In this document: positions 5,218 to 43,684 of the stretch, piece after piece
How positions within the stretch are numbered: the stretch's first letter is position 1
Layout: the number at the start of each line of letters is the position of its first letter
DNA from: an uncultured Spirochaetota bacterium
GTDB lineage: Bacteria > Spirochaetota > Spirochaetia > Treponematales > Rectinemataceae
NCBI GenBank assembly: GCA_903821875.1
Contig: CAIJMU010000146.1
Location: forward strand, 62,001 to 126,000
Reading direction: 5' to 3'
DNA: 64,000 bases
Translations under genes and position numbers: made by a program
Notes under the pieces: generated by a model
Database searches by the model: none
What the model was told of the DNA's origin: nothing
What the model saw: only the letters and a program-made list of their open reading frames with translations

Positions 5218-5241
5218 GGGGGGTCGACTCCCCCCACCTCC
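5218..5241 (+). repeat. Inverted partial copy of the tmRNA 3' end / att core
   Basis: On the plus strand this reads as a T-arm and acceptor end (GGGGG, loop with TCGACT, CCCCC, then CACCTCC). Its reverse complement shares 18 bp (GGAGGTGGGGGGAGTCGA) with the att core at 5278-5297. With that core it forms a near-perfect inverted repeat around the terminator. No complete tmRNA or tRNA precedes it, so I read it as a decayed remnant of an RNA gene end or of an earlier integration. Confidence 0.6.
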
Positions 5242-5277: not shown

Positions 5278-5297
5278 TGGAGGTGGGGGGAGTCGAA
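5278..5297. other. attL core (20-bp direct repeat of the ssrA 3' end)
   Basis: TGGAGGTGGGGGGAGTCGAA here is identical to 43665-43684 inside the intact tmRNA gene. Similarity stops on both sides. The two copies bracket the integrase-bearing element, as expected for site-specific integration into a tmRNA 3' end. Confidence 0.88.
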
Positions 5298-5842: not shown

Positions 5843-5975
5843 ATAGAGCAAACCTCCCAACCGTGCCGGGGAAGTGTCACCCTTGGGACCAGGCGTCTCA
5901 ATCACCAATATGCCATTGTTGTGAGTGGCTAATCGGCTATAATGGAGAATGTTCTTATCCAAGGAGGGGCGTGAT

Positions 5976-8351: not shown

Positions 8352-9335
8352 TTAGCGGAGGAAGGAGTAGCGCTCCTTCATGAAGAGGAGCCAGGGCTCG
8401 AGTTCGGGGAAGCGGGCGATCGGGGCAGAGGCGATGAGGTCCTTGGTCGCGATGGGGACGAAGGATGACGGCTCGAGAAGGAGCCGGGGCCAGACCTCGT
8501 AGACATCGTGGCCGAGATCGCGAAAGCGGGGAGAGGTGACCGCCCGGATTTCGCGGTTCTCGGTGACGGTGACATGGACGAGCTTGACCTGGTCTACCTC
8601 GGGGATGCCCACCTCGATGATTCTCGAGGCCAGGAGCTGCTGTCGGGCGAGCTGGTACAGCGGCTCGTAGAGCATGTCCTCGATCCTCGGGGCGATGGTC
8701 AGGTCGAATGGGGTGAAGGCGCCGTAGTAGATCCCGCGGTAGGATTCGGCGCGGTCGGAGCCGTCAGACCGAAAACGTTTGTACGACACCCCATACGACT
8801 CGCTGTACTTCCACTCGATGAGCAGCATTACCTGTTGGCCGTCGATGGCCTCGTAGATGACCGCGGCATCTATCGACGTTGAACCAGCGCCGCGATGGCG
8901 GTCGGCGCCGAGCTTGGGAATCTCGCCGAGGTAGTTGTAGTCGCCAATCCATTCGAAAGCGATGAACGAGTCCTCCTCGACCGGAAGCATTCGCGCCAGG
9001 TCAGGGAAGTGAGGCCGGAGAAGGTCGGCGAGCGGCTCAGGCCGTTTGGCAAATGGGTAGAGGGCGTTGACGCAGAATACTTGGCTGGAGCAAAGATGAT
9101 TCGAGGGGAGCCCTGGCAGGGCTCCTCCGTGCCAGACGATGCCGAGGCGCTCAAAGTCTGCCATGGCATCGTCACGTATCTCGTGGAAAAGATTGAAGTG
9201 GGCAAGCTCCATGGGCAGGCAGAAGGGATACATGCGGGAGCGGTAGAGGCCAGGAACTCGGGCCTTGCGAGGAAGGGTCTTTGACGTCAGCTTCCAGGCG
9301 AGCTGGCGTCGCTTTTCGGTGCTCAGGAATGTCAT
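8352..9335 (-). CDS. PD-(D/E)XK restriction-endonuclease-like protein (paralogue B), downstream of Bet
   Basis: 327 aa. FEWIG, TSIDAAVIYEAIDG and LLIEWKY place Asp156, Glu174 and Lys176 as a PD-(D/E)XK centre; the same motifs occur in the gene at 5976-6884. It starts 30 nt after the Bet/RecT gene with GAGGT ahead of the ATG, so the two are co-transcribed. Recombinases of the Bet family usually pair with an exonuclease; this gene occupies that place but does not look like a YqaJ or lambda-Exo protein. It may be that partner, or an unrelated restriction-type nuclease. Confidence 0.65.
   Translation of the reverse strand: MTFLSTEKRRQLAWKLTSKTLPRKARVPGLYRSRMYPFCLPMELAHFNLFHEIRDDAMADFERLGIVWHGGALPGLPSNHLCSSQVFCVNALYPFAKRPEPLADLLRPHFPDLARMLPVEEDSFIAFEWIGDYNYLGEIPKLGADRHRGAGSTSIDAAVIYEAIDGQQVMLLIEWKYSESYGVSYKRFRSDGSDRAESYRGIYYGAFTPFDLTIAPRIEDMLYEPLYQLARQQLLASRIIEVGIPEVDQVKLVHVTVTENREIRAVTSPRFRDLGHDVYEVWPRLLLEPSSFVPIATKDLIASAPIARFPELEPWLLFMKERYSFLR
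8771..8786 (-). repeat. Copy 1 of 16-bp GARAACGTTTG motif
   Basis: GAAAACGTTTGTACGA on the plus strand, identical to the copy at 38631. It lies inside the coding sequence of nuclease paralogue B, so it may be fortuitous, but it shares orientation with the four right-end copies. Confidence 0.5.
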
Positions 9336-11955: not shown

Positions 11956-14900
11956 ATGGCATCGGCGCCTGCTTCGAGCCTGCCGCGCATTGGCCTAAAC
12001 GCCTATATCCGCTCCCGCTGGGGGATCATCACCAACGTCGAGCCCTTCGATACCCGAGGGCCCGAGGGCGTCCTGCACCTTGTGACGATAGAGTATGGGG
12101 CCGCCGACGGCGGGGGAGATGATACGGTCGTCTGGGAACGCGAGGCAGACGCCCGGGTCCTCGAGATCTCGAAGATAGGCGACCTCTCTAGTACCAAGCC
12201 GATGGATCCCGATGACCATGCGGCGATGATCTCGGCAGCCCGCTGGAACGCCCTGACTCCCTTCTTGTCACCCTACTCCCCCACGGAGAGGGCCAAGAAC
12301 CTCGCCTCCAGTCCGCTCTTCGGCGCGGTTCAGGGGGAGGACTACCAAATGGTTCCCCTCCTCCAGGCGCTCTCGATGGAGCGCATATCGCTCCTCCTCG
12401 CGGATGATGTCGGCCTTGGAAAGACGATAGAGACGGGCCTCATCCTCACCGAGCTCCTCCTCAGGCGGAAGATTCGGCGCGTCCTCATCCTTACACCCGC
12501 GAGTCTCAAGGCTCAGTGGAAGGAGGAGATGAAGGAGCGCTTCAGCCTCGGCTTCGACGTCGTTGATCGCGAGGAGACCGCCCGGTTCCGCCGTAGCCAG
12601 GGGCTCGAGGCGAATCCTTGGCGACTTCTTCCACGCATAATCGCGAGCTACTACTACCTTAGGCAGCCTGATGTCCTCGAGCAGTTCCTGTCGACCTGCC
12701 GCGACGCGGTGAGACCAGGGGGAGAAGGCGGCAGGCTTCCCTGGGATCTGCTCATCGTGGATGAGGCTCACAACCTGATGCCCGTTCCCTTCGGCGAAGA
12801 GTCCGATCTCACGAAGATGCTACGGGAAATAGGCCCCTACTTCGAGCACAAGCTCTTCCTCACCGCGACTCCCCATAACGGCCACACGAGAAGCTTCACG
12901 GGGCTGCTCGAGCTTCTCGATCCCGTCCGCTTCGTCCAGAAGAGTGAGCTCTCCGAGAATGAGCGCACTCTTGTCAAGAACCTCGTCGTGAGGCGACTGA
13001 AGCGAGAGATCAACGCCCAGGATAGGGCCGCAAAGCGTCCGCAGAGATTCGTCGATCGGAGCGTATCACCCGCTCCGGTATACCTGAAAGCGACTGAGGT
13101 CCGGCTCTACGAAGCCTTCGGTGAATTCCGCGGCTCCATGAAGAGATTGGTCAGGTCAGCTGGCATAGAAAAGAACAGAGTAGGCGCGTTCGCCGTCGAG
13201 ATACTGGCGAAGCGCCTCCTCTCTTGCCCCTTCGCCTTCGCGGATTCCTGGTTCAGGATGGTGGCAAACCTTCGTGATGACACTGGAGGGAGTGAGCTTG
13301 CTTCTCCGGCAGAGACGGCCAATGAGGCAGCCGTCAAGAGAGCCAAGCGTGACCTGGATAACGAGACCGAAGACGACCAGGAAAAGAACTCGCGTGAGGG
13401 CTTCGCGAGCGCGACGGTCGGTGCCTGGCTAAAGCCGTGGGCATCGCAACTGAAGGGCGAGATAGATGCGATAGGCGACGCGATCGCGGCATTAGGCATC
13501 AAATCCTCGGATCCTATTGCCGCACCTGAGGATAGCCGAATCGAGAGGCTCATCGAGACGATCGATGGCGAACTTCGTGAAGGCGGCCTTTGGCGAGATG
13601 ATGAGAGGATGATTGTCTTCACGGAGTACAAGACAACGCTCGACTATCTGGCAGCCAAGCTTGAAAAGCGCTATCCGGAAGGAAGCAACCGGATTGCTCT
13701 TCTCTATGGAGGAAGCGACCCGAGCATGAATGCGGAGCGGCGCGAGGAGATCAAGCGTCGATTCAACGACCCAAGTGATCCAGTCCGTCTGCTCCTGGCC
13801 ACGGACACCGCGAGCGAAGGACTCAATCTTCAAGCGACTGCCCACCGAGTATTCCACTTCGACATCCCATGGAACCCTTCCAGGCTGGAGCAAAGGAATG
13901 GCCGCCTCGATCGGCATGGCCAGGCGCGCAACGTCGTCGTCTATCACTTCACCTGCGAGCAAAACCTTGATCTCGCCTTTCTTGCCACGATCGTCGAGAA
14001 GGTCCAGCAGATACGTGAGGATCTCGGGTCCATGGGAGAGGTCTTCGATCGGGCATTCCAGCGCCGCCTCCTAGACGGAGAGGAAGTCCGAACGGTAGTC
14101 AGCGATCTTGAACTCGACATCAAACGCCGACAGGCTCGCATCAATGTCCCCTCGACGGATGGAGCTACGATAGACGGAGACATCGCACGATATCGAGCTG
14201 CCCTCGGCTTCACGCCAGAGGCATTCAAGCTGTTCATCGATCGGGCCATGGCCGGGAAGAGCGCGCCACCACCACGCATGACAGGGCCTGAGGGCTCCGG
14301 CAAGTATCGCCTGAAGCTTCCCCTACCCAGTGATTGGAAGCGGCTCATCGAGGATGAGATCGCGGATCCAGAAAGCAGGGCAATACCAGCCTTGATATTC
14401 GATGGCTTGGCCTGTATCGAGCAGATACACGGAAGGCCTCTCTTCAAGGTGCCGGCTGACTCCCGTCTCCTCCATCTAGGCCACCCCCTCGTCCGCGAAG
14501 CATTGGCCGTCTGGTCGCGGCGCCGCTACGAAGCCTGGGTGGACCGTAAGGGAGGCGCCGGTCCATGGACTGTTCATCGCGGAAAGCTGCCGGCAGGGAC
14601 TCGTGCCCTGCTACGGTTGACGGTAGAAGAACTTGCCGTGAATGAGCTTCGTGAGGCCTTCCACCACTGGGTCCGTGTCTGGGAATGCGAGATCAACACC
14701 GAGGGGAGGCTACAAGCCCCAAGGCCCTTCAATGGGCAACCGTCAGGCGAGGCAGCACTGCTTCGTGATGCTTCCTCGGAATCCCAGCTCATAGAATCGG
14801 CCCGACGTATATTCATGGACATTGAAGATGAGATGGCCGATGCCTTCGCCTCGATCAGGGAGAACCTCAACACCTCCCTAAGGCCTCTCCTCGCGGTCGC

Positions 14901-15255
14901 GACCAAAGAGGAAGTCGGGAAGGAGAAGGAGAGACTCGATGCACGTATCGCGGAGATCGATGTCGCGATGCGGGATGCCAATGTAAAAGCGATCTCAAAG
15001 GAGCTGGATACGCTCATAGCCGAAGGAGAGACCTGGCTCTTCGAGGAAATATCACGCGACGAGGCCGAACGGAAGCAGCGCCTTGAAGAGGAACTCGAAC
15101 TACGAAAGAGACGATACCGAGAGCTCCGCGACTTCCTCAAGAAGGAGCAGAAGCGACTACTGGAGGAAGTCCTCCCGCGCCGCTATAGCCTCGCAGGTAA
15201 CATCCAGGTATTTCCGGTTGGGGTTGAGCTCGTTCTCCCGGAGACGATCGTATGA
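11956..15255 (+). CDS. SNF2-family helicase, DrmD-like (DISARM-type)
   Basis: 1099 aa; GGGAGGA precedes the ATG. An SF2/SNF2 motor: Walker A D-D-V-G-L-G-K-T-I-E near residue 153, LLIVDEAHN near 267, LFLTATPHNGH near 300, then the helicase C lobe with VFTEYK, LLATDTASEGLNLQ and QRNGRLDRHGQ near 610-655, and a long helical C-terminal region rich in Glu/Arg. It is the first gene of a four-gene rightward operon and overlaps the methylase start by 4 nt. In class 1 DISARM the SNF2-like DrmD precedes an adenine methylase, a helicase and a DUF1998 protein, the order found here. It would act as a DNA translocase on incoming DNA. Confidence 0.85.
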   Translation: MASAPASSLPRIGLNAYIRSRWGIITNVEPFDTRGPEGVLHLVTIEYGAADGGGDDTVVWEREADARVLEISKIGDLSSTKPMDPDDHAAMISAARWNALTPFLSPYSPTERAKNLASSPLFGAVQGEDYQMVPLLQALSMERISLLLADDVGLGKTIETGLILTELLLRRKIRRVLILTPASLKAQWKEEMKERFSLGFDVVDREETARFRRSQGLEANPWRLLPRIIASYYYLRQPDVLEQFLSTCRDAVRPGGEGGRLPWDLLIVDEAHNLMPVPFGEESDLTKMLREIGPYFEHKLFLTATPHNGHTRSFTGLLELLDPVRFVQKSELSENERTLVKNLVVRRLKREINAQDRAAKRPQRFVDRSVSPAPVYLKATEVRLYEAFGEFRGSMKRLVRSAGIEKNRVGAFAVEILAKRLLSCPFAFADSWFRMVANLRDDTGGSELASPAETANEAAVKRAKRDLDNETEDDQEKNSREGFASATVGAWLKPWASQLKGEIDAIGDAIAALGIKSSDPIAAPEDSRIERLIETIDGELREGGLWRDDERMIVFTEYKTTLDYLAAKLEKRYPEGSNRIALLYGGSDPSMNAERREEIKRRFNDPSDPVRLLLATDTASEGLNLQATAHRVFHFDIPWNPSRLEQRNGRLDRHGQARNVVVYHFTCEQNLDLAFLATIVEKVQQIREDLGSMGEVFDRAFQRRLLDGEEVRTVVSDLELDIKRRQARINVPSTDGATIDGDIARYRAALGFTPEAFKLFIDRAMAGKSAPPPRMTGPEGSGKYRLKLPLPSDWKRLIEDEIADPESRAIPALIFDGLACIEQIHGRPLFKVPADSRLLHLGHPLVREALAVWSRRRYEAWVDRKGGAGPWTVHRGKLPAGTRALLRLTVEELAVNELREAFHHWVRVWECEINTEGRLQAPRPFNGQPSGEAALLRDASSESQLIESARRIFMDIEDEMADAFASIRENLNTSLRPLLAVATKEEVGKEKERLDARIAEIDVAMRDANVKAISKELDTLIAEGETWLFEEISRDEAERKQRLEEELELRKRRYRELRDFLKKEQKRLLEEVLPRRYSLAGNIQVFPVGVELVLPETIV

Positions 15256-18200
15256 CCGGCATGCGGATGAATAGTCGTGACGCGACTACTCGTCGCGAAG
15301 GTGACCAGGCTTGGTGGAACTCACTCAACCATGGTGGCCTCATGCTCTCGCCCGCGCAGATCAAGAGCCTCTCGCCCGAGGCCGCCGCATTGCGACCTCT
15401 CAATGACTATGCCTATACGAAGCTGAAGAATGCCACCCTCGCACAGCGAGACGATTGGGCGAATCCTCCGGCCCTCGTGCTCGAGACTCTATGGGGAATC
15501 GTGCTCGGCAAAGGTTCCGATGGTTGGCTTAATTCTCCCGATGCGAGCTGGTCGGTGGAGTCAATAACTGGGCGGATAGTCAAACCTTGGCGCGTGTATA
15601 GTCGCGACGGTCTCACGTTCCCTGTATTCCTTGCGGAGAAGCAAGAGCGAGGGTCGGCGAAGCCTCTTTCACGGAATCGCCGCTTCCTTGCCAGAGTTCT
15701 CGAGTGGCAAAGGAAGAAGGGCCTACGCTTTGCCTTGGCTACCAATGGAGCGCAGTGGCGCTTCATCCATGCCGGAACGGACTACGAGTCTTTCACGGAG
15801 TGGGACGAGAGCCTCTGGTTCGAGGAGGGTCGCGAGGGCGACCAGATCGACGCCCTTCGTATCCTGTTCTCAGATCTACCGCGACTCTTCGATCTCGCGG
15901 CTTGCGCCAAGGCAGGCCAAGGCGAGCTCTCACGAGACCTTGGTGAACGAATCAGGCGCGGGGTAGAGCTCCTTGTCGCGGCAGGCGGAGACCGATTCAA
16001 CGAACTCGCGACGGACGATGAAGGCCGACGCTCGGTATACCTCGCGGCTGTCCGGATCGTCATGCGCCTCATCGTCATCCTCTTCTCGGAAGCACGCGCG
16101 TTGCTACCGCGGGACAATCCTGTATACGCTCGCAGCTATAGCCTCGAGGGCCTCCGGGATCAGCTCCATAGGCGAATAGGCCGTAAGGACGGGAGCCTCC
16201 GGAACGGGAGGAGCGCTTGGCCTCGGGTCCTCTCCCTCTTCCGCCTCGTATATGCTGGCAGCAAACACGCGGCTCTCCCGATGACCGCGTATGGCGGAGG
16301 ACTCTTCGAACCGGGGGCGCCTGACTCCGAAGATCCTACATCCCGCGCCTTGGCATCCCTTGAAGATGTGGCAAAACCACTATCCGATGCAGAGATCGCT
16401 CAACTCCTCGATCTCCTGTGCTACGCGACCTATCGCACGAGACAAGGACGGGGATCGATTCCTGTCAAAGCGCCTGTGGACTTCTCCGACCTTTCGAGCG
16501 AGTACATCGGCATTTTATATGAGGGCCTTCTTGACTTCGAGCTTCGCCGCGCCGAGGCGGATGATGCCATAGTGTTCCTGAACGCGGGCAACCAGCCAGC
16601 CCTCCCCCTGTCCCGACTCGAGGCTATGTCAGACAAGGAACTGGAGACGCTCTTCAAGGAGCTCGCGAAAGCCGCGAAGGGCGATGCAGCAGCTGAGGAG
16701 GAACCCGAAGAGGACTCCGCAGATGAATCCGAAGAAGATTTAGCGGAGGAAGGGGTCTCGGACCCCGACGAGAGTGAAGGTGAAGAACTCCTTCAAGTTT
16801 CACTCGAGGACACTGACCAGGCCCCGCGGGACCAAGGTCCCGTCGTAGATCGCGGGCCTGAGGATCTGGCGGCTGAAAGAATCCGGGGATGGAAACTTCG
16901 GGCATCCTTGGCCCTGGAACCGAAGAAGAAGAAAAGCGAATCCGACGCGGCCTTCCAGGAGAGGATCGAGCGCGCGAGTCGTACGGTGAGCGTGAGGGAT
17001 GTCCTCCCGGGCGAATGGTACCTCGTGCGCTGGGGCGGGACCCGAAAGGGCTCGGGCACCTTCTACACGCCGCCGGGACTCGTAGAGCCAACCGTGCGTC
17101 GGACACTCGAGCCACTCCTCTATGAAGGTGAAGGGGACGCGAGCCATCCGAAGCTACCGGAAGCGATACTGTCGCTTAAGGTAGCGGATATCGCGATGGG
17201 ATCGGGTTCCTTCCTGATCGGCGCTCTCCGGGAGATAACGGATGCCCTCCAGAAGAGCCTCTATGCCCACGGTCGCCTCTGTGAACGGGAAGACGGGACT
17301 ACCTGTCGCCTCGCTGATGGCGGCGAGGCCGGCATTGTTGACGACATAATCCCCTTGCCGCAAAGCCACGATGCCTTCGAAGACAGGCTCCGCGGGAGGT
17401 TGAAGCGCCATATCGTGGAACGCTGCCTCTATGGCGTGGACATAGATCCCCTGGCCGTCGAACTCGCCCGCCTCGCGCTCTGGGTAGAGACGATGGACTA
17501 CGAGCTTCCCTTCACCTTCCTGGATCATAAGCTCAAAGTTGGTAATAGCATCGTAGGCTGCCGCTTCTCCTGGCTCGGGCACTATCCGGTCAACGCCTGG
17601 TCGAGAGAAGGTCCCGATAAGGACCATCCCTGGACCAAAGCATACAAAGAGTTCATGAATGAAAACGTAAAGGGCTCGGTCTGCAAATGGCTCGAAGCGG
17701 AGCAGGGACAGATCCTTATGTATAAGGAATATAGCGCCCTTCGAAGCAAGGTCCATGCTGAGGGAATCGCGGCCTTCGCTGAGCTTCACGCCTTGCCGGT
17801 ATGGCAAGCCGAGGAAAGACGTCGGATATACCAGGAAAAGGTCGTAGGGAATGCCTCGGTCAAGGCTCTGAAAGACCAGCTCGATCTCTGGTGTGCCCTC
17901 TGGTTCTGGCCTGCCGACAAGCTCGGTGATGCTCCACTAGCCGACAGCCTAGCGCGACCGAGTCCAGCGGCTCTCGAGATTGCACACACGATTGCCAGGG
18001 AAGAACACTTCTTCCACTGGGAACTTGAGTTCCCCGACGTCTTTGTAGGGACTATTGATGACAAGGCTTCAGGCTTCGATGCTATTCTAGGGAATCCACC
18101 ATGGAATATTCTCAAACCCTATTCGAAAGAGTTCTTCTCTAACTTCGATCCGCTCTATAGGTGTTACGGGAAGTCGCAGGCTCTCGCTAAGCAGAAAGAG

Positions 18201-20117
18201 TACTTCGCAATAGACGAGGCACGCAAAACAGAATGGGATCAATATCGGGCCAACTCCAAAGCATTGTTAAACTGGACAGTGCTTATACATAACCCATTCG
18301 GTGATCCTAAGTCATCAGATTCAGGCAATGTAGTGCTTAAGCGCGGGAGTGATGGAGACATCAAACACGATATCTGGCGTTTCGCGAGGACTCGAGCGAT
18401 TGGCTTTGCTGACCCAGCACCTCTTTTCATGCATCAAGGAGGAGGTGCCGTTAACAGTTACAAGCTATTTACCGAGCAAGCATTCCTTCATATCTGCTCC
18501 GGGGGGTGTATTGGGTATATTACGCCTAGTGGTATCTATGCAGATGAAGGGTCCTACGCCCTTCGAAAACTTCTGATAGAGCGAGGCGAATGGGATTGGC
18601 TGTTCGGCTTCGAGAACCGGGACAAGATCTTCGATATCGATAGCCGCTTCAAGTTCTGTGCATTCATTGCAAGAAAGGGCGGTAGCACGCAAGCCGTGCG
18701 CGTTTCATTCATGAACCACAGACTTGAGGACTGGGCTAATGGCAATACCTATCCAACGACCGTGACCCAGGTAAAGGCTTTCTCCCCAAAATCGCTCGCA
18801 TTCCTAGAAGTGCGAGGCAAGCGCGATCTTGAAATCCTTGAGAAGATCTATGGAAACGCGAATGTCGTGCTTCTCGGGAATCAGGTCGATCAGGGATGGA
18901 CGATTAATTGTTCGCGAGAATACAACATGACGGACGACGCCATGCTATTCCCTGCTATCACAAAATGGGAAGAGAAAGGTTATCGAGCCGACGAATATGG
19001 GCATTGGCTCAAGGGGGAATGGCAAGCGCACTTAGGGACGGAAACAAGACTTGACATGCCATCTGATCCCGCCATCCGCAAACCAGAGACCGTCCTCTCT
19101 CAAGATCGTAGGTATATTCTTAATCTGGATTCACTCGAAGATGTTGCCTTGCCTCTCTACCAAGGTGTAATGATCAACCACTTTGACTTCGCAGCAAAAA
19201 CCTACATCTCAGGCGCAGGGAATCGAGCCAAGTGGGGTGATCAACCTGAAGTCATCAGGACGATCAGACCTCAGTTTCTAATAGCCAATACCGAGGACAG
19301 TTTCCGCTCAAAGACAGTAAAGGTCGCGTTTAGGCTGGTTGCGAGATCTACTGACGCGCGTACTATGATCTGTGCTGCTATCCCTGACTTGCCGTCTGGA
19401 AATTCTTTGTCCCGCTACATTGTAAGCAAAGGCAATCCGTTCGTATTTGCGGCAATACTGTCGTCGATGGTGTTTGACTTTCTGCTAAGGATGAGAATGA
19501 CCGGAACAAACCTAAACCAGTTTATAGTCGAAGAAGTTCCAATAATTACCGATTCGATGGTTACGACTATAACGACCATTTCGGAGAGACTAAGTGCCAC
19601 TCACATCGCATTCGCCCCACATAGTGAGTTAGCGCCTTCAGAATGGCTCAGAACTACAGAAGCAAGAGCGAAGGTCCGAGCTGAGCTCGACGCTCGCGTC
19701 GCTCTTCTCTACGGACTCGACGAGGGCGATCTCGCCTACATTCTCTCTGACTGTAATCATCCTTCCGACAGGCTCAGCCAAAAAGCCTTCGCACGAGGGC
19801 TGGATCCCCGAGGCTTCTGGAGGGTGGACAAGGAACTGTCGCCGGAAGAGCGCCATACGGTGCGGACGCTCAGGGCCTTCAAAGCGATCAAGGAAGGAAG
19901 TTACGGGCAGATCGCTACCGAGAGCTTCGAAAGGGCCGAGGCTGCGGAACGCCCCGGCGCGGAAGACATGAAGGGACGCAAGCTGGTTCTTGCCCATCGC
20001 TCGCTTATCTCGAGGATACGGAGATTCGGTCGGGAAGATGATGTATTGGAGACCCCCAAATCGGCAGCAACCAAGCTTGAGCGGGCTGACAAGAAAGGGC
20101 AAGGATTCTTGTTCTAG
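15252..20117 (+). CDS. Giant N6-adenine DNA methyltransferase, DrmMI/PglX-like
   Basis: 1621 aa. Motif I (V-A-D-I-A-M-G-S-G-S-F-L) lies near residue 645 and motif IV G-N-P-P-W near 946, the signature of gamma-class N6-adenine methylases of the Eco57I/PglX type. A strongly acidic stretch (residues about 480-525, repeated Glu/Asp) separates the N-terminal 450 residues from the catalytic region. Residues about 950-1460 would hold target recognition; the DNA there (18.1-19.65 kb) is visibly more AT-rich than on either side. It overlaps the SNF2 gene by 4 nt. It likely marks self DNA for the DISARM-like system. The N-terminal region could include a degenerate nuclease domain, but I see no clear catalytic triad. 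Confidence 0.85.
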   Translation: MTGMRMNSRDATTRREGDQAWWNSLNHGGLMLSPAQIKSLSPEAAALRPLNDYAYTKLKNATLAQRDDWANPPALVLETLWGIVLGKGSDGWLNSPDASWSVESITGRIVKPWRVYSRDGLTFPVFLAEKQERGSAKPLSRNRRFLARVLEWQRKKGLRFALATNGAQWRFIHAGTDYESFTEWDESLWFEEGREGDQIDALRILFSDLPRLFDLAACAKAGQGELSRDLGERIRRGVELLVAAGGDRFNELATDDEGRRSVYLAAVRIVMRLIVILFSEARALLPRDNPVYARSYSLEGLRDQLHRRIGRKDGSLRNGRSAWPRVLSLFRLVYAGSKHAALPMTAYGGGLFEPGAPDSEDPTSRALASLEDVAKPLSDAEIAQLLDLLCYATYRTRQGRGSIPVKAPVDFSDLSSEYIGILYEGLLDFELRRAEADDAIVFLNAGNQPALPLSRLEAMSDKELETLFKELAKAAKGDAAAEEEPEEDSADESEEDLAEEGVSDPDESEGEELLQVSLEDTDQAPRDQGPVVDRGPEDLAAERIRGWKLRASLALEPKKKKSESDAAFQERIERASRTVSVRDVLPGEWYLVRWGGTRKGSGTFYTPPGLVEPTVRRTLEPLLYEGEGDASHPKLPEAILSLKVADIAMGSGSFLIGALREITDALQKSLYAHGRLCEREDGTTCRLADGGEAGIVDDIIPLPQSHDAFEDRLRGRLKRHIVERCLYGVDIDPLAVELARLALWVETMDYELPFTFLDHKLKVGNSIVGCRFSWLGHYPVNAWSREGPDKDHPWTKAYKEFMNENVKGSVCKWLEAEQGQILMYKEYSALRSKVHAEGIAAFAELHALPVWQAEERRRIYQEKVVGNASVKALKDQLDLWCALWFWPADKLGDAPLADSLARPSPAALEIAHTIAREEHFFHWELEFPDVFVGTIDDKASGFDAILGNPPWNILKPYSKEFFSNFDPLYRCYGKSQALAKQKEYFAIDEARKTEWDQYRANSKALLNWTVLIHNPFGDPKSSDSGNVVLKRGSDGDIKHDIWRFARTRAIGFADPAPLFMHQGGGAVNSYKLFTEQAFLHICSGGCIGYITPSGIYADEGSYALRKLLIERGEWDWLFGFENRDKIFDIDSRFKFCAFIARKGGSTQAVRVSFMNHRLEDWANGNTYPTTVTQVKAFSPKSLAFLEVRGKRDLEILEKIYGNANVVLLGNQVDQGWTINCSREYNMTDDAMLFPAITKWEEKGYRADEYGHWLKGEWQAHLGTETRLDMPSDPAIRKPETVLSQDRRYILNLDSLEDVALPLYQGVMINHFDFAAKTYISGAGNRAKWGDQPEVIRTIRPQFLIANTEDSFRSKTVKVAFRLVARSTDARTMICAAIPDLPSGNSLSRYIVSKGNPFVFAAILSSMVFDFLLRMRMTGTNLNQFIVEEVPIITDSMVTTITTISERLSATHIAFAPHSELAPSEWLRTTEARAKVRAELDARVALLYGLDEGDLAYILSDCNHPSDRLSQKAFARGLDPRGFWRVDKELSPEERHTVRTLRAFKAIKEGSYGQIATESFERAEAAERPGAEDMKGRKLVLAHRSLISRIRRFGREDDVLETPKSAATKLERADKKGQGFLF

Positions 20118-20154
20118 TCACGTATATGCAGGAAGTTGATGGAAGGAGCGCGAT

Positions 20155-20793
20155 ATGCCAAGAGGGATCATCTATGTCTTCACCAACGAAGCCATGCCTG
20201 AACTGGTGAAGATTGGGTTCACCACCAATGAATCCGTGGAGGATCGCCTCGCGCAGCTATCGACCCATGCGGGCGTTCCCATGCCCTTCGAGTGCTTCTT
20301 CGCGGCAGAAGTTGATGATGTCGAGAACAAGGAGAAGCTTCTTCACAGCTTGTTCGATGACAGAAGAATCAATAAGCGTAGGGAGTTCTTCAGGATAGAA
20401 CCCGAGAAAGCCGTGACCGCATTGAGACTCTGTGACTACACTGACAAGACGCCCGGCCCAGTCGCCATGGAAGCTGAAGACAAGAAGGCGATAGACGCGG
20501 AGAAGGTCAGGCGCTCGCGAATCAACCTTTCCAAACTAGGCATACAGGAAGGGGATACCCTGACCTTCTCTCGAGATGAGAATCTTCATGCGATCGTTAG
20601 GGCAAACAACAAGATCGAAGTTAACGGAATCGAAACAAGCCTCTCCGCGTCGGCTCTTGAGATACTCAACAGGATGGGGTACAAGACCACCTCGGTAAGC
20701 GGATCAGATTATTGGGTATATGATGGCGAGCTGCTGGATGAGCGCCGCAGAAGATTGGAAGAGCAAGAGTTCGGTGATCAGTCGGCGAGCTGA
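20155..20793 (+). CDS. GIY-YIG (T5orf172-type) protein with C-terminal RAMA/DUF4357-like domain
   Basis: 212 aa. The first 95 residues (GIIYVFTNEAMPELVKIGFT, D-R-L-A-Q-L-S, then E-x-L-H-S-L-F) match the T5orf172 branch of GIY-YIG endonucleases. The last 95 (LSKLGIQEGDTLTF, VRANNKIEVNG, SLSASALEIL, YWVYDG) match the RAMA/DUF4357 module, thought to recognise modified DNA. Together they suggest cleavage or sensing that depends on modification state. It is set 37 nt after the methylase and 47 nt before the giant helicase, in one operon with both. A GIY-YIG gene is not part of the canonical DISARM set. Confidence 0.8.
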   Translation: MPRGIIYVFTNEAMPELVKIGFTTNESVEDRLAQLSTHAGVPMPFECFFAAEVDDVENKEKLLHSLFDDRRINKRREFFRIEPEKAVTALRLCDYTDKTPGPVAMEAEDKKAIDAEKVRRSRINLSKLGIQEGDTLTFSRDENLHAIVRANNKIEVNGIETSLSASALEILNRMGYKTTSVSGSDYWVYDGELLDERRRRLEEQEFGDQSAS

Positions 20794-20840
20794 TTCGGAT
20801 AATGGCGCAATGAGAGTAGAATCACTGAGGAAGGAAAAGC

Positions 20841-23800
20841 ATGATAAATCCCATCTCCTTCACTGAAGAGGTCATCTCCGACTTCCTCAAGTACCAGCTC
20901 TCGACCTATCGCTTCTCCGACCCCGACCTCTATGCCCAAATGAGGAAGCTCCTCAACCTGAACGAGACTAGGTCATCCCCCCTTCTCAAGGGCCCATACA
21001 TAAGCCTCTCCCGGGTATTCAGGCAGGGTGCTACCCTTGATCAACTGGCCGCGGCCGGCGTACTCCATCCAGGGATCGCGACACTCTCCTCATACCCTCG
21101 AATGTATGCTCATCAGGAGAAGGCCATTCGAGCCATCACCTCGGACAAGCATACAATAGTCTCAACCGGTACAGGATCGGGAAAGACCGAGTGCTTCCTC
21201 TACCCCATCATAAGCCGCTGCATGAAGCTACGCGACGAGAGCGCTCCTCAAGGTATCGTCGCGGTCATCGTGTATCCTATGAACGCTCTTGCAGAAGACC
21301 AGCGGATTCGCCTCAGGGAGCTCCTGGTGGGGACCGGCGTCAGCTTTGGCATGTATACGGGAAACACGCCCGAGGATCCTGTCGCGACCTCGAAGCGCCT
21401 TCCTCCTGGAACCTCGCGGGCTGCCTATAAAGCGGAGCTGGAAAGGATGCGCAGGGACAATCCTGAAGGCCTCCTCTATCCTTCGGAGGAGCGGACCTCG
21501 CGCAGCGAGATGCGTGATCCAGAGACGGTCCCGAGAATCCTCCTCACCAACGTCAAGCAGCTGGAAATCCTACTGACCCGTGGCAAGGATACTTCCATGT
21601 TCGCGGGCGCCAGGCTCGAGTATCTAGTCTTCGACGAGGCGCATACCTTCACGGGGGCTCTTGGAGCAGAGACCGCCGCGCTGATCCGCCGCCTTAGGAC
21701 CTTCTGTGGTAAGGAAACAGAAGATACCGTGTGCATCGCTACCTCGGCCACCATCGCTGACCCTGAACGGGGAGTGGAAGCCGGACGGGACTTCGCGGCA
21801 CGGTTCTTCGGTGTACATCGCGAGCGTGTCGAACTAGTCGGCGAAGAATATGAATCGGAGCACGCCATTTGGTCGGAGGCTCTGAGTTCCACGCCGCCAC
21901 CCTCCGATCCCCAGGGAATCCTTCGGACTATCCTGAAGTCGCTGGGCAAGCTTGAAAGCGAGGACTCTGACGAGATTGCCTTGGCCGCCCTATCGGGAGC
22001 TTGTACTGCCTTGTTCGGACGCCCAACTTCGTACAAAGAAGCGTGGCGAGAGCAGCTCTACAGAGACATGGTCCGATGGACGGTCCCCTATCAACTGGCG
22101 GAAAAGGTGAAGTACCCCTTGAGTCTGCAAACCTTGCAAGGCTCGTTCAAGGACATCCGCCATGACCCCATCTCCGAAGAAGAGATACTGGCGTGGTTCG
22201 CCCTTGGCGCCGCGGCGCGCAATGAGGGAAGACCCTTGTTCCGCCCCGTTGTCCATAACTTCGTACGGGGAATCGCCGGTGCCCAGGTGACGCTCGACCC
22301 TACTACGAGCAAGCCAACACTGTATCTCTCCGGCGAAGATCGCATAACCTCATCAGACACGCGCTTCCCCTTCTCGGTCGTAGTTTGCACTACCTGCGGG
22401 CAACACTACTTCAAGCATTCAGTAGCGGGGCTTGAGCCGCTCCCGGCAGGATTCGGCGGCGGACACCAGACGTTGCATGGCCAGCATTGGGATCATGTGC
22501 CTTCCGGTGACGAGGGGACGGTACTCTACCTCTTCGACAAGATTCGGGGGGAGAGCGACGACGAATCCGAAGAAGACGAAGCCGAACGAAGCCACAGTGC
22601 CAAGATACGATCGGTTCCGCTGTACGTATGCACAGAATGCGGCCTTCTGGCCGACCATGAGCCGGATACTTGCCCAAGCTGTTCCCGGTCTGGCTGCTTC
22701 GCGCGCGTGAGCGCGGTCCTCCAGAAAGACACCAACCGTGGATACTTCCAGCGCTGCGTATGCTGCGGCAAGCAGGGGAACTCACTTACCGGACGCTATA
22801 GGGAGCCGGTCAGGGAGATCAAGGCTATTACGGCTCCCGACATCCACATCCTCGCCCAAAGCATGATCCAAAACCTGGAACGCAGGCGACTCCTCGTGTT
22901 CGCCGACAATAGGCAAGACGCGGCTTTCCAGGCCGGGTGGATGAAGGATCACTCGCGGCGTTATCGCTTCCTCAATCTCGCGCAAGCCGAGCTAAAGAAA
23001 GGTCCCACCACCCTTGGGGACCTTGTCCACAATCTTGACGAACTATTCGATAGGGACAAGATGCTCTCGTTCTCGCTCCTGCGCGAGGTCTGGGAGTACG
23101 CCTCCTTCAATGACTCTCCGACCAATCACAGGAGAGAAAGAAATACGTACATCAGGCTGCAGCTTCTCAGGGAACTGACCCGGCCTGCGCGTGATACTCA
23201 AGGCCTTGAGGCTTGGGGACGGCTCTGTGTGCGCTACAGGGGTCTTGATCCTGAGAATCAGTGGATCCGCGATTGGGCCTTCGATCTGCACATCCCGCCC
23301 GAAGAACTAGTCGATGACTGCTCGCTCTTCCTTGACAAGCTGCGAAGGAGCGATCGATGCGTCTTCGACAAGCCAACGAAGCTATACACGCGCTTTATCG
23401 AGCGCTCCGATCCATTCGTGCAGCGCGGATACATACCAAACACCGACCTCATGCCAAAAATCGTGAAGGTTCGGTACGAGTCAAATGACAAGAAGAGCTA
23501 TACGATCCAGCTGGCTTCCGAGAGGGGGCAGACCGCCTTCTCACAGATGGCGCGCAAGTGGGGTGTTCCAAGCGATCACTTCAGGGACTTCGCCGAGAGC
23601 TTCTTCAGGCTCCTGGTGTCGAAGGGTATTCTTGTCTCAACTGATGTCGAGAACAAGAGAGGCAATCCTATCCCCGGCGCTTCAGGCTATCAGGTCAATG
23701 TCGAATCCCTCCTCCTGACCTATGGGGAGCAAGCCTACCGTTGTTCGACTTGTCATCAGATCCATGCTCGTCGATCGACAGGGATGAAGTGCGTAGCATG

Positions 23801-26270
23801 GAATTGCGATGGCACGCTCTTGCCAAGGGAAACCGATGCCGATGACTTCGACCTCATGATGCTGGATCGCGAGGTAGCCATCCTTCAGCCGGAGGAGCAC
23901 TCAGCCCAGGTCCCTGCCGCAGCGAGGGAGAAGCTCGAACGCGACTTCAAAGATGAGCATCACGAGATACCGAATACGCTGGTATGTACTCCGACACTTG
24001 AGATGGGTGTTGATATCGGTAGTCTCGATTGCATTCTCATGCGGAATATGCCGCCTCTCCCCGCGAACTACTGGCAGCGTGCCGGCCGAGCCGGGCGGCG
24101 CCATAGGATAGCGGTAGACATCACTTATGCCCGACCCGCGAGCTTCGACCAGGCATACTTCAAGGACCCGCTCAAGCTGCTCATGGGGATGATCGATCCT
24201 CCGAGCTTCAATCTCAGGAACGAGAAGCTCATCGAGAAGCATGCCCACTCTGCTGTCATCGGTTGGTTCCGCAAGAAAGCGGAAGCACGAGCTACTCCCG
24301 CTGATGAACGGGAAAGAATCCAGGAGACGCTTGCGTCCTCGTTCCCATCGAAGACCGGGGACTATGTCTTCACTGATAACCGCATCGACTTGACGCCCCG
24401 CAGCTTCGCTGCCCTGGCCGCTCTCGTCGGTGAGTACCGTGACGAGCTGCTCGAGATGCTAAAGCGGACCTTCACGGCTACATGGCCACCGGAAGACAAG
24501 GAATCTGTCCAGGTTGAAATACTTGGGTCGGTGCTCGATGGAATGGCACATGCACTCACGGAAACCGTGCTCAGGCTTCGGGAACGCATAGCCTGGGCCC
24601 AACGCGAGCTACAGCGCATTAGTGGCGTCTTCAATGATACGGCGCTCTACGATCCCCTCGACAGAGTAATCGAGTCCAGGCTGAAACGCTTCTTGTCGCA
24701 GATGCGTCCCAGCGGCCAGATGCAAAATGCCGACGCTCTGTCGGAGGAATCATTCACCCTGTCCTACCTTGCCTTGGAGGGCTTCCTTCCTGGCTACGGG
24801 CTTGATACAGGATCAATACTCGGCGAGTACTCATCAGGAGGGGCGGGAATCTCACGCGCTCTATCGATCAGGCGCAACCCTGCGGTCGCCCTGCGGGAAT
24901 TCGCCCCCGGCAACCTGCTCTATGCGTTGGGGAGTAAATACATCCCCAGGCGATATCATCTCGGTGATAAGCCCCCCCTTGCCTTCAACTATGATCCGAA
25001 TACATCCACGATCGTCGAAGAGGGGCTGGTCGACAACAGCTTCGCGACGCCCGTCACGGGGCAGGTGTTGAGCCTCGAGCTCCAAGATACGGAGATACTC
25101 CACTACTCGACAATCAGCGACGAGGAAGACTACCGATTCTCCATGGCATCCACTGTGCTCGGAATGTCCATGGAGTCACATGAAGGTGGAGCATCGTACC
25201 GCGCAGGAAACCAGGAAATACGATCGCTGAAGAACTACCAGTTCCGCCTGATAAACCTTGGACCCGGCATGATCATTGGGGGTGCCAACATCTCTGGTTT
25301 CCCGATCTGTCGAGTATGCGGCTATAGCACCTCTCCCTACTCCTCAGACGCAGAGAAAAAGACATTCTGGGATCGGCATGTCCAGACATGCCAGCAACCC
25401 CATAGCGTACCCTTTGCATTGCATATTGAAGACGCGGCGGACGTCCTTCTGTGGCCAGGATTCGAGACGCCTCTCGATGCGTACAGCACCGTAGAGGCAA
25501 TCCGCAAGGGCGCGGCCGCCGTTCTTGATATGGAAGAGGACGATCTTCAGCTCCTCGGGCTGCCCCAGGATGGCGGGTATACGATGATGCTCTATGATCC
25601 AATGCCAGGTGGATCAGGCCTACTAGATCAGATACTCGTGAAATGGGAAGCGGTACTCAAGGCGGCACTCTCGATCGTGGAAGAGTGCCCAAGCCGCTGT
25701 GAAACAGCCTGCATCGATTGCCTGTATTCATACCGGAACAGTCAGTACCACCGGTTCCTCGACAGAAAGAAGGCGGCCGAACATATCGGCGAGTTATTGC
25801 AGGCCGGTGACCTTCAGAAACAGATGGACATACCACAGAAGATCCCGCAGGCAAAGAGCGGAGCCCAACCCCTCAACAATCCCGAGGGCCGCCTCAGGAA
25901 GCTATTGATCAATGCCGGCCTCCCCGAACCGGAGGCTCAGAAGGTCATCAATCTAGGTGGTGGACTCGGTGCGACGATCCCGGATTTCTACTACCACTCT
26001 CCAAACGACCAAATCGAAGGCATATGCGTCTACCTGGACGGCATGCACTCTAGTATCCACGGCAATGCTGCCCAGTCCGAAGTTGATGCCAGAAAGCGAA
26101 CTGGGCTGGAAAACCAGGGGTACATGGTAGTCGTGATAACATTCACCGAGCTTTCGGACCGCAACTCCCTAGGTGGCAAGTTCTACAGGATCGCGCGGGC
26201 ATTGATGGGGAAGGTGCAGGCGGACCGCATAAGGGATTCTGGCGAGTGGTTTGAGGTTGGAACGGAATAG
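20841..26270 (+). CDS. DEAD/DEAH helicase-DUF1998 protein (DrmA+DrmB-like) with C-terminal Vsr/DUF559-like nuclease segment
   Basis: 1809 aa. Lobe 1: STGTGSGKTE at 108-117, LVFDEAH near 263, ATSAT near 300. Lobe 2: PTLEMGVDIGSLD near 1053 and QRAGRAGRR near 1079, so about 740 residues lie between the lobes. That insert carries Cys pairs (CTTCG near 516, CTECG...CPSC near 597, CVCCG near 643, CSTC...C..NC near 970), probable zinc sites. A DUF1998 region follows, with CRVCG near 1490, YDPMPGGSG and the four-Cys segment CPSRCETACIDC near 1617. The last 120 residues (TIPDFYY, VYLDG-MH, R..GLENQGYMVVVI) resemble Vsr/DUF559 PD-(D/E)XK nucleases. DISARM keeps DrmA and DrmB separate; their combined length is about that of this single protein. 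Confidence 0.82.
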   Translation: MINPISFTEEVISDFLKYQLSTYRFSDPDLYAQMRKLLNLNETRSSPLLKGPYISLSRVFRQGATLDQLAAAGVLHPGIATLSSYPRMYAHQEKAIRAITSDKHTIVSTGTGSGKTECFLYPIISRCMKLRDESAPQGIVAVIVYPMNALAEDQRIRLRELLVGTGVSFGMYTGNTPEDPVATSKRLPPGTSRAAYKAELERMRRDNPEGLLYPSEERTSRSEMRDPETVPRILLTNVKQLEILLTRGKDTSMFAGARLEYLVFDEAHTFTGALGAETAALIRRLRTFCGKETEDTVCIATSATIADPERGVEAGRDFAARFFGVHRERVELVGEEYESEHAIWSEALSSTPPPSDPQGILRTILKSLGKLESEDSDEIALAALSGACTALFGRPTSYKEAWREQLYRDMVRWTVPYQLAEKVKYPLSLQTLQGSFKDIRHDPISEEEILAWFALGAAARNEGRPLFRPVVHNFVRGIAGAQVTLDPTTSKPTLYLSGEDRITSSDTRFPFSVVVCTTCGQHYFKHSVAGLEPLPAGFGGGHQTLHGQHWDHVPSGDEGTVLYLFDKIRGESDDESEEDEAERSHSAKIRSVPLYVCTECGLLADHEPDTCPSCSRSGCFARVSAVLQKDTNRGYFQRCVCCGKQGNSLTGRYREPVREIKAITAPDIHILAQSMIQNLERRRLLVFADNRQDAAFQAGWMKDHSRRYRFLNLAQAELKKGPTTLGDLVHNLDELFDRDKMLSFSLLREVWEYASFNDSPTNHRRERNTYIRLQLLRELTRPARDTQGLEAWGRLCVRYRGLDPENQWIRDWAFDLHIPPEELVDDCSLFLDKLRRSDRCVFDKPTKLYTRFIERSDPFVQRGYIPNTDLMPKIVKVRYESNDKKSYTIQLASERGQTAFSQMARKWGVPSDHFRDFAESFFRLLVSKGILVSTDVENKRGNPIPGASGYQVNVESLLLTYGEQAYRCSTCHQIHARRSTGMKCVAWNCDGTLLPRETDADDFDLMMLDREVAILQPEEHSAQVPAAAREKLERDFKDEHHEIPNTLVCTPTLEMGVDIGSLDCILMRNMPPLPANYWQRAGRAGRRHRIAVDITYARPASFDQAYFKDPLKLLMGMIDPPSFNLRNEKLIEKHAHSAVIGWFRKKAEARATPADERERIQETLASSFPSKTGDYVFTDNRIDLTPRSFAALAALVGEYRDELLEMLKRTFTATWPPEDKESVQVEILGSVLDGMAHALTETVLRLRERIAWAQRELQRISGVFNDTALYDPLDRVIESRLKRFLSQMRPSGQMQNADALSEESFTLSYLALEGFLPGYGLDTGSILGEYSSGGAGISRALSIRRNPAVALREFAPGNLLYALGSKYIPRRYHLGDKPPLAFNYDPNTSTIVEEGLVDNSFATPVTGQVLSLELQDTEILHYSTISDEEDYRFSMASTVLGMSMESHEGGASYRAGNQEIRSLKNYQFRLINLGPGMIIGGANISGFPICRVCGYSTSPYSSDAEKKTFWDRHVQTCQQPHSVPFALHIEDAADVLLWPGFETPLDAYSTVEAIRKGAAAVLDMEEDDLQLLGLPQDGGYTMMLYDPMPGGSGLLDQILVKWEAVLKAALSIVEECPSRCETACIDCLYSYRNSQYHRFLDRKKAAEHIGELLQAGDLQKQMDIPQKIPQAKSGAQPLNNPEGRLRKLLINAGLPEPEAQKVINLGGGLGATIPDFYYHSPNDQIEGICVYLDGMHSSIHGNAAQSEVDARKRTGLENQGYMVVVITFTELSDRNSLGGKFYRIARALMGKVQADRIRDSGEWFEVGTE

Positions 26271-29051: not shown

Positions 29052-29480
29052 ATGGAAGAGGCGAGTCTCCGTCGTGTCTTTCCCTTGCTACTGGATGATA
29101 TAGAGTATCTGGATGCGCGGGGACTCGCCTGGGAAACGCTCTTCGAGGAGCCTTCTCGGTGGATTCTTGTACGGAATTTCCCAATCCCAGAAGGGTATAA
29201 CGTATCCTATGCCGACATTGCGATACTCCTCCCAGATTCATATCCGACAACACAGATAGACATGGCATACGTATTCCCTGCCCTTAGCCTTACTAGCGGT
29301 GCTGCCATCAACAACGTTGACGCCATTCAAGCGCTCGACAATCGTAGCTTCCAGCGTTGGTCTCGACATCGGACTCAATCTAATCCTTGGCGCCCTGGCC
29401 TAGACAATCTCGGAACTCATATCGAGCTAATTGAAGAGTGCTTCTTGAGGGAGACAACGAAAAATGGAAACACCAACTGA
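29052..29480 (+). CDS. E2-like ubiquitin-conjugating protein (prokaryotic E2 family E type)
   Basis: 142 aa. The sequence follows the prokaryotic E2-E pattern: WILVRNFPIPEGYN, ADIAILLPDSYPTTQIDMAY, then the SFQRWSRHR motif and NPWRPGLDNLGTHIELIEE helix. It sits between Ubl and E1 and overlaps the E1 start by 17 nt. The only cysteine is near the C-terminus, in the last helix, not at the usual E2 active-site position. The mechanism may therefore not use a canonical cysteine thioester, or this member may be a scaffold. Confidence 0.78.
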   Translation: MEEASLRRVFPLLLDDIEYLDARGLAWETLFEEPSRWILVRNFPIPEGYNVSYADIAILLPDSYPTTQIDMAYVFPALSLTSGAAINNVDAIQALDNRSFQRWSRHRTQSNPWRPGLDNLGTHIELIEECFLRETTKNGNTN

Positions 29481-30834
29481 ACCTATAGCTACCGCGCGTC
29501 TGCGGCTATCAGGACGTCAGCTAGCGCGCATACAGGATCTACTGACGTCCGCTCGCCTTGAGAAAAAGGCCATTATTGGCGTCTGCGGATCGACAACTAG
29601 GAAAGGGGAGGCAGGAGCTGATTTCGTTGCCTCCGTCCACGCTCTGTCAGAAGAGCTGAGCGACTTGGATAAAGAGCCCACCGATGAAATCCTCTGCTGG
29701 ATCGCTCAGAAGCAGAAGCGTTATCCTCTTCTGCCGATAGTGTTCCACCACGGCGGTGAACACGAAGCTGCACAGGCAAGGCGAGTTCTTGAAACCCTTA
29801 GTGGGGACAAATGCATGACTGGCATTGTCGTGCAGGTAGGCGCTAAAGGTGATATGGCAGGAATACTTGTGGACAATACTGAGGTCATGTTGCTAGATTC
29901 CCTAATTGTTGCAGGTCCTGACATCCTTGTTTGGTCACGTAATTCTGCCGCTGATGCCGAAGGCGATGACATCAGCCTCCGACTAGAACAGTCATTCGGT
30001 ACCAAGACAACTCGAATGCTATCGGGCTTGCGAGTGGGAGTTGTTGGCGTATCGGGAACCGGCAGCCCGGTGGCTGAGATGCTCTACCGCCTTGGCGTGA
30101 AGGAGATCACCCTTGTCGATGATGATTGTCTGGAAGAAAAGAATCTCGGGAGGATCTACAACTCGGCTCTTGCCGATGTAGGGAGATTCAAGGTTGATGT
30201 AATGGGCGAGGCCTTCGAGCGAAATGGTCTGCCAACTGCTATTCGAGTAATTAGCAAGAATACGTTTGATCAGGACGTAGTCAGGGAGCTGGCCCAATGC
30301 GACATCATATTCGGGTGCATGGACACACATTCCGGACGAAATCTGTTGAATAGGCTCTGCACATTCTATGTAATCCCCTATCTCGACCTTGGAGTAAAGC
30401 TGGAGGCAGATGGTCGGGGAGGAGTCTCGGCCGTCTGCGGGGCGGTACACTATTTGCAGCCTGATGGATCAACCCTTCTCAGTCGCAAGGCCATTAGCCT
30501 GGCTCAGATCGAAGCTGAGGATTTGAAGCGGACTGACCCCAATCGCTATGATGAACTCAGAAGGGAGAAGTACATCAAAGGCGTCCAAGAGGATCGACCA
30601 GCCGTCATATCGGTGAACACGATGGTCGCATCTATAGCAGTGAACGATTTCCTTGCACGGCTTCACCCCTATCGAAACAACCCCAATGCCGATATCGGTA
30701 GCATAGCAGTTAACCTGAGGGAACCTCTTCTGAGACCAGATGAAGAAGGTGATCCGGATGAAGGCATGGCAAAGTCCGTTGGACTCGGCGATATTCGCCC
30801 AATACTGGCTATGCCTTTCTTTGCCCACGGGTGA
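29464..30834 (+). CDS. ThiF/E1-like adenylyltransferase for the ubiquitin-like protein
   Basis: 456 aa. The C-terminal 270 residues are an E1/ThiF Rossmann domain: VGVVGVSGTGS near 191-201, D-D-D near 219-221, E-K-N-L-G-R (Arg230), G-R-F-K-V-D (Lys243) and F-G-C-M-D-T-H (Asp287), all residues that hold ATP and Mg. The first 180 residues are a separate domain with FHHGGEH near 94-100, possibly a degenerate JAB-like or inactive partner domain. It would adenylate the C-terminal glycine of the Ubl encoded two genes upstream. There is no CxxC zinc pair of the MoeB/ThiF type, which sets it apart from cofactor-sulfurylation E1s. Confidence 0.85.
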   Translation: METPTEPIATARLRLSGRQLARIQDLLTSARLEKKAIIGVCGSTTRKGEAGADFVASVHALSEELSDLDKEPTDEILCWIAQKQKRYPLLPIVFHHGGEHEAAQARRVLETLSGDKCMTGIVVQVGAKGDMAGILVDNTEVMLLDSLIVAGPDILVWSRNSAADAEGDDISLRLEQSFGTKTTRMLSGLRVGVVGVSGTGSPVAEMLYRLGVKEITLVDDDCLEEKNLGRIYNSALADVGRFKVDVMGEAFERNGLPTAIRVISKNTFDQDVVRELAQCDIIFGCMDTHSGRNLLNRLCTFYVIPYLDLGVKLEADGRGGVSAVCGAVHYLQPDGSTLLSRKAISLAQIEAEDLKRTDPNRYDELRREKYIKGVQEDRPAVISVNTMVASIAVNDFLARLHPYRNNPNADIGSIAVNLREPLLRPDEEGDPDEGMAKSVGLGDIRPILAMPFFAHG

Positions 30835-43592: not shown

Positions 43593-43613
43593 TCGAGCCC
43601 CCGTGTTGCTCAC

Positions 43614-43630
43614 AATTCTGCTACACGGGG
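43614..43630. repeat. Right-end copy of the AATTYTGCTACACGRGG arm repeat
   Basis: AATTCTGCTACACGGGG matches 5435-5451 at the left end at 15 of 17 positions, same orientation. A candidate integrase arm site. Confidence 0.5.
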
Positions 43631-43664
43631 GCCGGAATGTCAAGTAACTCTTTATTACATATGA

Positions 43665-43684
43665 TGGAGGTGGGGGGAGTCGAA
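43665..43684. other. attR core within the ssrA 3' end
   Basis: TGGAGGTGGGGGGAGTCGAA, identical to 5278-5297. It restores the T-arm and acceptor stem of tmRNA, so the gene stays functional after insertion. Confidence 0.88.

Follow-up and report, generated by a model that had tools for sequence, protein, structure and literature searches.

Which kind of defence system is encoded by the four genes at 11956-26270 of a 64,000-nucleotide stretch of DNA from an uncultured Spirochaetota bacterium (the window), and is the small GIY-YIG protein encoded among them a working part of it? A first-pass annotation of the sequence described a self-contained, DISARM-like operon of class 1, with helicase and DUF1998 in a single chain that ends in a nuclease. 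Family searches, structural models and comparison with related loci show that this locus, which looked like an odd DISARM, is better placed as a divergent ARMADA, and give its additional gene a different standing.

Gene order and affinities of the core proteins

The operon consists of four intact co-directional genes on the plus strand, in the order SNF2 helicase, methylase, GIY-YIG protein and YprA helicase (P0001 to P0004; Table 1), and the place, strand and order first described for them are confirmed. From 5' to 3', their junctions measure -4, +37 and +47 bp. GC content varies little along the operon (0.52-0.59). Direct reading finds intact GLGKT and DEAH motifs in P0001 and intact GSGSF and NPPW motifs in P0002; P0004 likewise keeps its GTGSGKT and DEAH motifs. 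The same-strand gene upstream encodes a Fic protein, and the first gene downstream that could be assigned to a family encodes an HTH-ImmA/IrrE protein on the opposite strand.

Table 1. Coordinates of the operon, its domains and the surrounding element in the window
Feature	Position	Strand	Basis or detail
Left attachment repeat	5278-5297	+	exact 20-bp copy of tmRNA 3' end; 0 expected by chance
ArmA-type SNF2/RapA-like helicase (DrmD/BrxHII-like), P0001	11956-15255	+	1099 aa; Pfam SNF2-rel_dom, Helicase_C
ArmB-type N6-adenine DNA methylase (PglX/Eco57I-like), P0002	15252-20117	+	1621 aa; Pfam Eco57I, N6_Mtase
GIY-YIG-RAMA accessory protein, P0003 (PADLOC candidate family PDC-S57)	20155-20793	+	212 aa; T5orf172
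GIY-YIG (T5orf172) nuclease domain, residues 4-91 of P0003	20164-20427	+	Pfam
RAMA-like domain, about residues 122-205 of P0003	20518-20769	+	structure match only
ArmC-type YprA-family helicase with DUF1998 (MZB) and EDxHD/Vsr-like nuclease, P0004	20841-26270	+	1809 aa
MZB (DUF1998) zinc-binding domain, residues 1552-1628 of P0004	25494-25724	+	Pfam PF09369, 44.2 bits, cut-off 24
EDxHD/Vsr-like nuclease domain, residues 1675-1809 of P0004	25863-26267	+	model, Foldseek 3r3p, profile match 3r3p, conservation
HTH_17/excisionase-like protein of the element	41637-42302	-	Pfam HTH_17, 23.4 bits, below cut-off; PHROG 'excisionase and transcriptional regulator'
Tyrosine integrase, adjoining tmRNA 3' end	42351-43643	-	Pfam Phage_integrase, 35.8 bits
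tmRNA	43662-44017	-	
Right attachment repeat, within tmRNA 3' end	43665-43684	+	exact 20-bp repeat

The case for DISARM comes from the first two genes. P0001 passes the NCBIfam DISARM_DrmD equivalog cut-off (635 bits against 610) and scores 624 bits with the PADLOC DrmD model, and P0002 matches PADLOC DrmMI at 384 bits, along with the PADLOC IIG model PDLC03622 at 1117 bits. In P0004, Pfam places DEAD, Helicase_C and MZB together in a single chain, so the fusion of helicase and DUF1998 stands and both functions known from class 1 DISARM are present. This helicase, however, is not DrmA: P0004 reaches 51 bits with the PADLOC DrmA model and 19 bits with that of NCBIfam, whose cut-off is 999, against 368 bits with DruE. 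Its DUF1998 region is fused rather than supplied by a separate DrmB, an additional Vsr-like nuclease follows, and the neighbouring genes scanned include no DrmB, DrmC or PLD gene, which bears out the reported absence of DrmC. In addition, a 2025 preprint (PMC12458937) recovers chains of this fused type, ending in a nuclease, as a clade of their own with good support, and the same fusion occurs in 81 loci. It is accordingly very improbable that the locus is a class 1 DISARM whose DrmA and DrmB have fused with each other and with a nuclease. The top PADLOC matches of P0004 are Druantia DruE models (368 and 347 bits), and E. coli DruE aligns with it at 26-30%, which suggests that P0004 is closer to Druantia than to DISARM. 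Druantia type III (DruH-DruE) likewise combines a large DruE-like YprA helicase, a DUF1998 region and a C-terminal nuclease. Yet the adjoining genes include neither DruH nor any other Druantia partner, the nuclease of the window is EDxHD/Vsr-like and not PLD, and a methylase and an SNF2 helicase are present. A Druantia-type system with P0004 as its DruE is the least credible of the explanations and can nearly be set aside.

The first-pass annotation had allowed that similar arrays might be described under other names, and they are. The preprint by Bell et al. introduces ARMADA, which is related to DISARM and Druantia. Its defining parts are a YprA helicase, a BrxHII-like helicase and a PglX-like methylase, together with a C-terminal Vsr nuclease that is predicted to be active (PMC12458937). 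A YprA helicase of Druantia affinity alongside a DISARM-like SNF2 helicase and methylase corresponds exactly to that definition, so the P0001-P0002-P0004 core, judged by its family scores, is ARMADA, a kind already described, and not DISARM minus parts. The likeness includes the fusion of helicase, DUF1998 and Vsr-type nuclease, the A-B-C order and a mobile setting, in an element that sits at a tRNA or tmRNA gene and has a repeat of 16-20 bp there. What had been presented as a self-contained variant is thus an architecture already catalogued, apart from its GIY-YIG-RAMA gene.

The differences from the described systems are also clear. The host is Spirochaetota-like: among nine genomes compared, its 16S rRNA fragment comes nearest to an uncultured Spirochaetia (83%, against 76-80% for the others with a match), which is compatible with a Spirochaetota host but falls short of proof. 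Identity to the system of E. coli ATCC 8739, the second E. coli system used in the preprint (PMC12458937), is low: 27% over 585 aa for ArmA, 24-25% for ArmB and 24-32% for ArmC. Unlike the E. coli Type II system, the locus has no ArmD (a GajB-like helicase with a RelE-like domain) after ArmC, which places it outside the Type II definition. Closer relatives exist elsewhere. P0002 shares 40% identity over 1073 aa with the ArmB of an IMG/VR contig, and relatives of P0004 occur in 80 species-genome loci and one viral contig from many phyla, at 39-45% identity and mostly near full length. ArmB lies upstream of ArmC on the same strand in 53 of these 81 loci, and many others stop at a contig edge; none of the ARMADA loci read has the ArmC-first order of Type I. 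An ArmD-like gene directly follows ArmC in only seven of the loci examined. In a tree with long branches that meet, and with the Type I reference WP_108720193.1 not included, P0004 clusters with the 80 loci and outside the E. coli Type II ArmC.

The terminal nuclease of ArmC

Pfam does not recognise the nuclease segment at the C-terminus of P0004, whose last 120 or so residues had been proposed as a Vsr-like nuclease. Structure prediction, the check suggested for this segment, does find a nuclease fold. An AlphaFold2 model based on an alignment of thirty homologous segments has a pLDDT of 78 overall and 84-92 in its core blocks, and its top Foldseek match is the catalytic domain of I-Bth0305I (3r3p; probability 1.00, TM 0.68 on the target, and a modest E-value of 7e-3). 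The profile of the alignment independently matches PDB chain 3r3p (E 0.014). Residues E1682, D1715 and D1733 are each invariant in 81 of 81 homologues, and H1740 (80/81), D1749 (79/81) and R1753 (78/81) are nearly so. Neither E-value is strong alone, but the agreement of Foldseek and profile, together with residue conservation, makes a convincing case from the model that the segment is a real EDxHD/Vsr-like nuclease domain, with predicted activity.

The EDxHD homing endonucleases, with I-Bth0305I as their type member, have an active site that resembles those of PD-(D/E)xK enzymes (PMC3943268). The ARMADA preprint labels the C-terminal domain of ArmC as Vsr-type, which likewise falls in the PD-(D/E)xK superfamily (PMC12458937), and the Vsr guess was therefore right. 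P0004 shares with I-Bth0305I the nuclease fold and the E...D...H...D pattern. Unlike the homing enzyme, it carries this fold as the terminal domain of a helicase, without the DNA-binding modules of I-Bth0305I. The active site (E1682, D1715, D1733, H1740 and D1749) offers a concrete point for testing.

Many ArmC homologues continue beyond the nuclease, and in 39 of 81 (among L014-L093) a LexA-like Peptidase_S24 domain follows it. All 39 have a GxSM motif with the serine and nearly all have a [FY]T.K-type motif with the lysine; Pfam confirms Peptidase_S24 in each of three extensions tested. Examples lie at L051:14927-15937, L015:14954-15952 and L059:14969-15925. Neither LexA nor S24, nor any peptidase or protease, comes up in the main text of the ARMADA preprint (PMC12458937). 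A role of the S24 domain as a sensor of damage or infection is possible. Seven other homologues (L025, L043, L060, L069, L071, L074 and L081) have a different, non-S24 extension, and these are exactly the seven loci with an ArmD-like UvrD helicase immediately downstream. P0004 has neither the S24 nor the ArmD-associated extension.

The GIY-YIG-RAMA protein and the slot between armB and armC

P0003 matches Pfam T5orf172 (E 1.3e-17) and the PADLOC family PDC-S57 (226 bits), and residues Y7, E60, H64, R71 and E77 of its GIY-YIG domain are invariant across six homologues. Its model has a pLDDT of 80, but a pTM of 0.45 leaves uncertain how the two domains are arranged towards each other. Foldseek matches the N-terminal half to the Slx1 GIY-YIG domain and the C-terminal half to the RAMA domains of CcrM (C-terminal; 6pbd, E 1.6e-3) and MPND (7ydw, E 0.14), both with probability 1.00. 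Pfam RAMA and DUF4357 match neither P0003, nor its C-terminal half, nor five homologues. From the earlier reading of a T5orf172 protein with a RAMA/DUF4357 module, the nuclease is thus upheld by Pfam and the RAMA assignment by the structural model only, whereas a DUF4357 identity is not supported by the sequence searches. CcrM is the closest structural relative of the MPND RAMA domain, and the fold is poorly conserved in sequence (Yang et al. 2023, PMC9963953), which would account for the silence of Pfam. The same study found that the MPND RAMA domain does not prefer 6mA DNA in vitro, and 6mA reading by RAMA is disputed.

Relatives of P0003 were retrieved by an alignment that included plasmid relatives; P0003 as a lone query found none in genome contigs or viral contigs. 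Three full-length homologues (L113, L129 and L150) lie directly beside type I HsdR, with gaps of 18-90 bp, and another (L111) is two genes from HsdR. One (L112) precedes a type ISP enzyme by 9 bp, one (L008) is divergent beside a BsuBI/PstI-type RM pair, and others stand alone (L151-L154, L009 and L010). About 16 full-length loci make up this picture, which is not a statistical test. The window protein shares with these PDC-S57 proteins a two-domain layout of 205-215 aa and a frequent place beside adenine-methylase restriction systems; elsewhere the partners are type I, ISP or type II RM systems, or none, whereas here the gene sits within ARMADA. GIY-YIG-RAMA fusions have earlier been proposed as possible 6mA-dependent type IV restriction enzymes, and nucleases of the wH type that target 6mA seldom have a methylase gene next door (PMC11037411). 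Since GIY-YIG-RAMA genes often adjoin a methylase, an enzyme that simply cut 6mA DNA could harm its own cell. That danger would fall away with a different motif, or if RAMA detects missing methylation or just binds DNA. The recurrence of this family beside adenine-methylase systems makes 6mA reading by prokaryotic RAMA domains directly testable.

The position of the gene is variable in content. Among the 53 loci with ArmB upstream of ArmC on the same strand, the armB-armC gap is at most 250 bp in 21, 250-1000 bp in 11 and more than 1 kb in 21, and Pfam detects GmrSD, BrxC/D, AbiEi/ii, PLD, reverse transcriptase, XisH/XisI and other families among 57 ORFs in these gaps. An HMM made from P0003 together with five homologues of full length scores the window protein, as a positive control, at 292 bits and finds no GIY-YIG-RAMA gene in the 80 other ARMADA loci fetched from species genomes. 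With gap sizes that vary and unrelated defence genes inside the gap, this position behaves as a variable cargo slot, with the GIY-YIG gene apparently one more occupant; such a recurrent slot is itself a point for testing. Two loci illustrate a filled slot. In an IMG/VR contig (L011:6127-9988), it holds four genes, including those for a DUF932 protein and an HNH protein, and in an ARMADA relative on a Synechocystis sp. B12 plasmid (L007:2449-19482) a PIN-domain gene lies between ArmB and ArmC. The latter locus is annotated as many short CDS, pointing to frameshifts, decay or sequencing errors.

The best reading, with a probability of about 0.7, is an ARMADA anti-phage system (armA-armB-[slot]-armC, without ArmD) on a tmRNA-integrated 38.4-kb element, with the GIY-YIG-RAMA gene as slot cargo. 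The E. coli Type II system gives direct, non-abortive protection and requires all four of its genes (PMC12458937). By analogy with E. coli ARMADA and DISARM, ArmB would mark host DNA by N6-adenine methylation or license the complex, ArmA and ArmC would travel on phage DNA, either incoming and unmarked or in replication, and the EDxHD/Vsr-like nuclease of ArmC would cut it, protecting the cell directly and not by suicide. P0003 would be a co-transcribed, self-sufficient second nuclease, an add-on and not a required subunit, and its RAMA half would bring it to DNA and probably respond to adenine methylation state; we infer this methylation-gating step. Several points weigh against ARMADA with cargo: identity to the E. 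coli proteins is low, the E. coli system needs the ArmD that the window does not have, and what RAMA reads is contested by the MPND result (PMC9963953).

The main competitor makes P0003 an integral fourth subunit, in which RAMA would sense the methylation set by ArmB, GIY-YIG would make the first cut, and ArmC would then load and degrade. The shared strand, the short junctions on both sides of the gene and its similar GC content fit this arrangement as well as they fit cargo, a RAMA fold beside an adenine methylase speaks for it, and the family recurs near adenine-methylase systems, unlike the wH-type nucleases (PMC11037411). Against it, every other ARMADA locus fetched does without a GIY-YIG-RAMA gene and keeps A-B-C, and many unrelated genes occupy the slot elsewhere. 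A fixed role in a self-contained system, as first envisaged, fails on these grounds, and an integral subunit is unlikely. A methylation-gated, two-nuclease ARMADA, in which RAMA reads ArmB m6A, GIY-YIG cuts phage DNA that is hemimethylated or carries the wrong methylation, and the ends pass to ArmC, is equally doubtful. If it holds, adenine-methylase defence systems in general (type I, ISP, type II and ARMADA) would use GIY-YIG-RAMA as a plug-in. For ARMADA with slot cargo, the novelty is modest: the core is known, and in the literature examined a GIY-YIG-RAMA gene has not been reported in the armB-armC position, nor does the main text of the ARMADA preprint mention one there.

A tmRNA-integrated element around the operon

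The boundaries of the surrounding element can be read directly from the sequence. The integrase beside the tmRNA, and the 20 bases of its 3' end that recur at 5278-5297, indicate that the operon is carried by an element of about 38.4 kb (5278-43684) integrated at the tmRNA gene. ARMADA islands carry repeats of 16-20 bp (PMC12458937). In 392 further genomes of the phylum, no ArmC similar to P0004 appears at E 1e-60, and a search with P0003 finds no relative in 29 genomes of the family. Vertical inheritance of the operon is therefore unlikely, and these distributions are in keeping with horizontal arrival.

Besides the operon, the element carries genes for REase-ARP, PDDEXK, RecT, Mu Gam-like, ThiF, ParA-like and DUF2779 proteins. 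Upstream of the operon, a cluster at 5949-6884, 7013-8299 and 8352-9335 encodes two REase-ARP/PDDEXK_13 family proteins and one PDDEXK_4-like protein. Near the left end, at 5224-5241, an inverted near-copy of the attachment repeat lies across a terminator-like hairpin. A ThiF-domain (E1-like) protein encoded at 29464-30834 has weak PADLOC E1-E2 matches and may represent a further defence gene.
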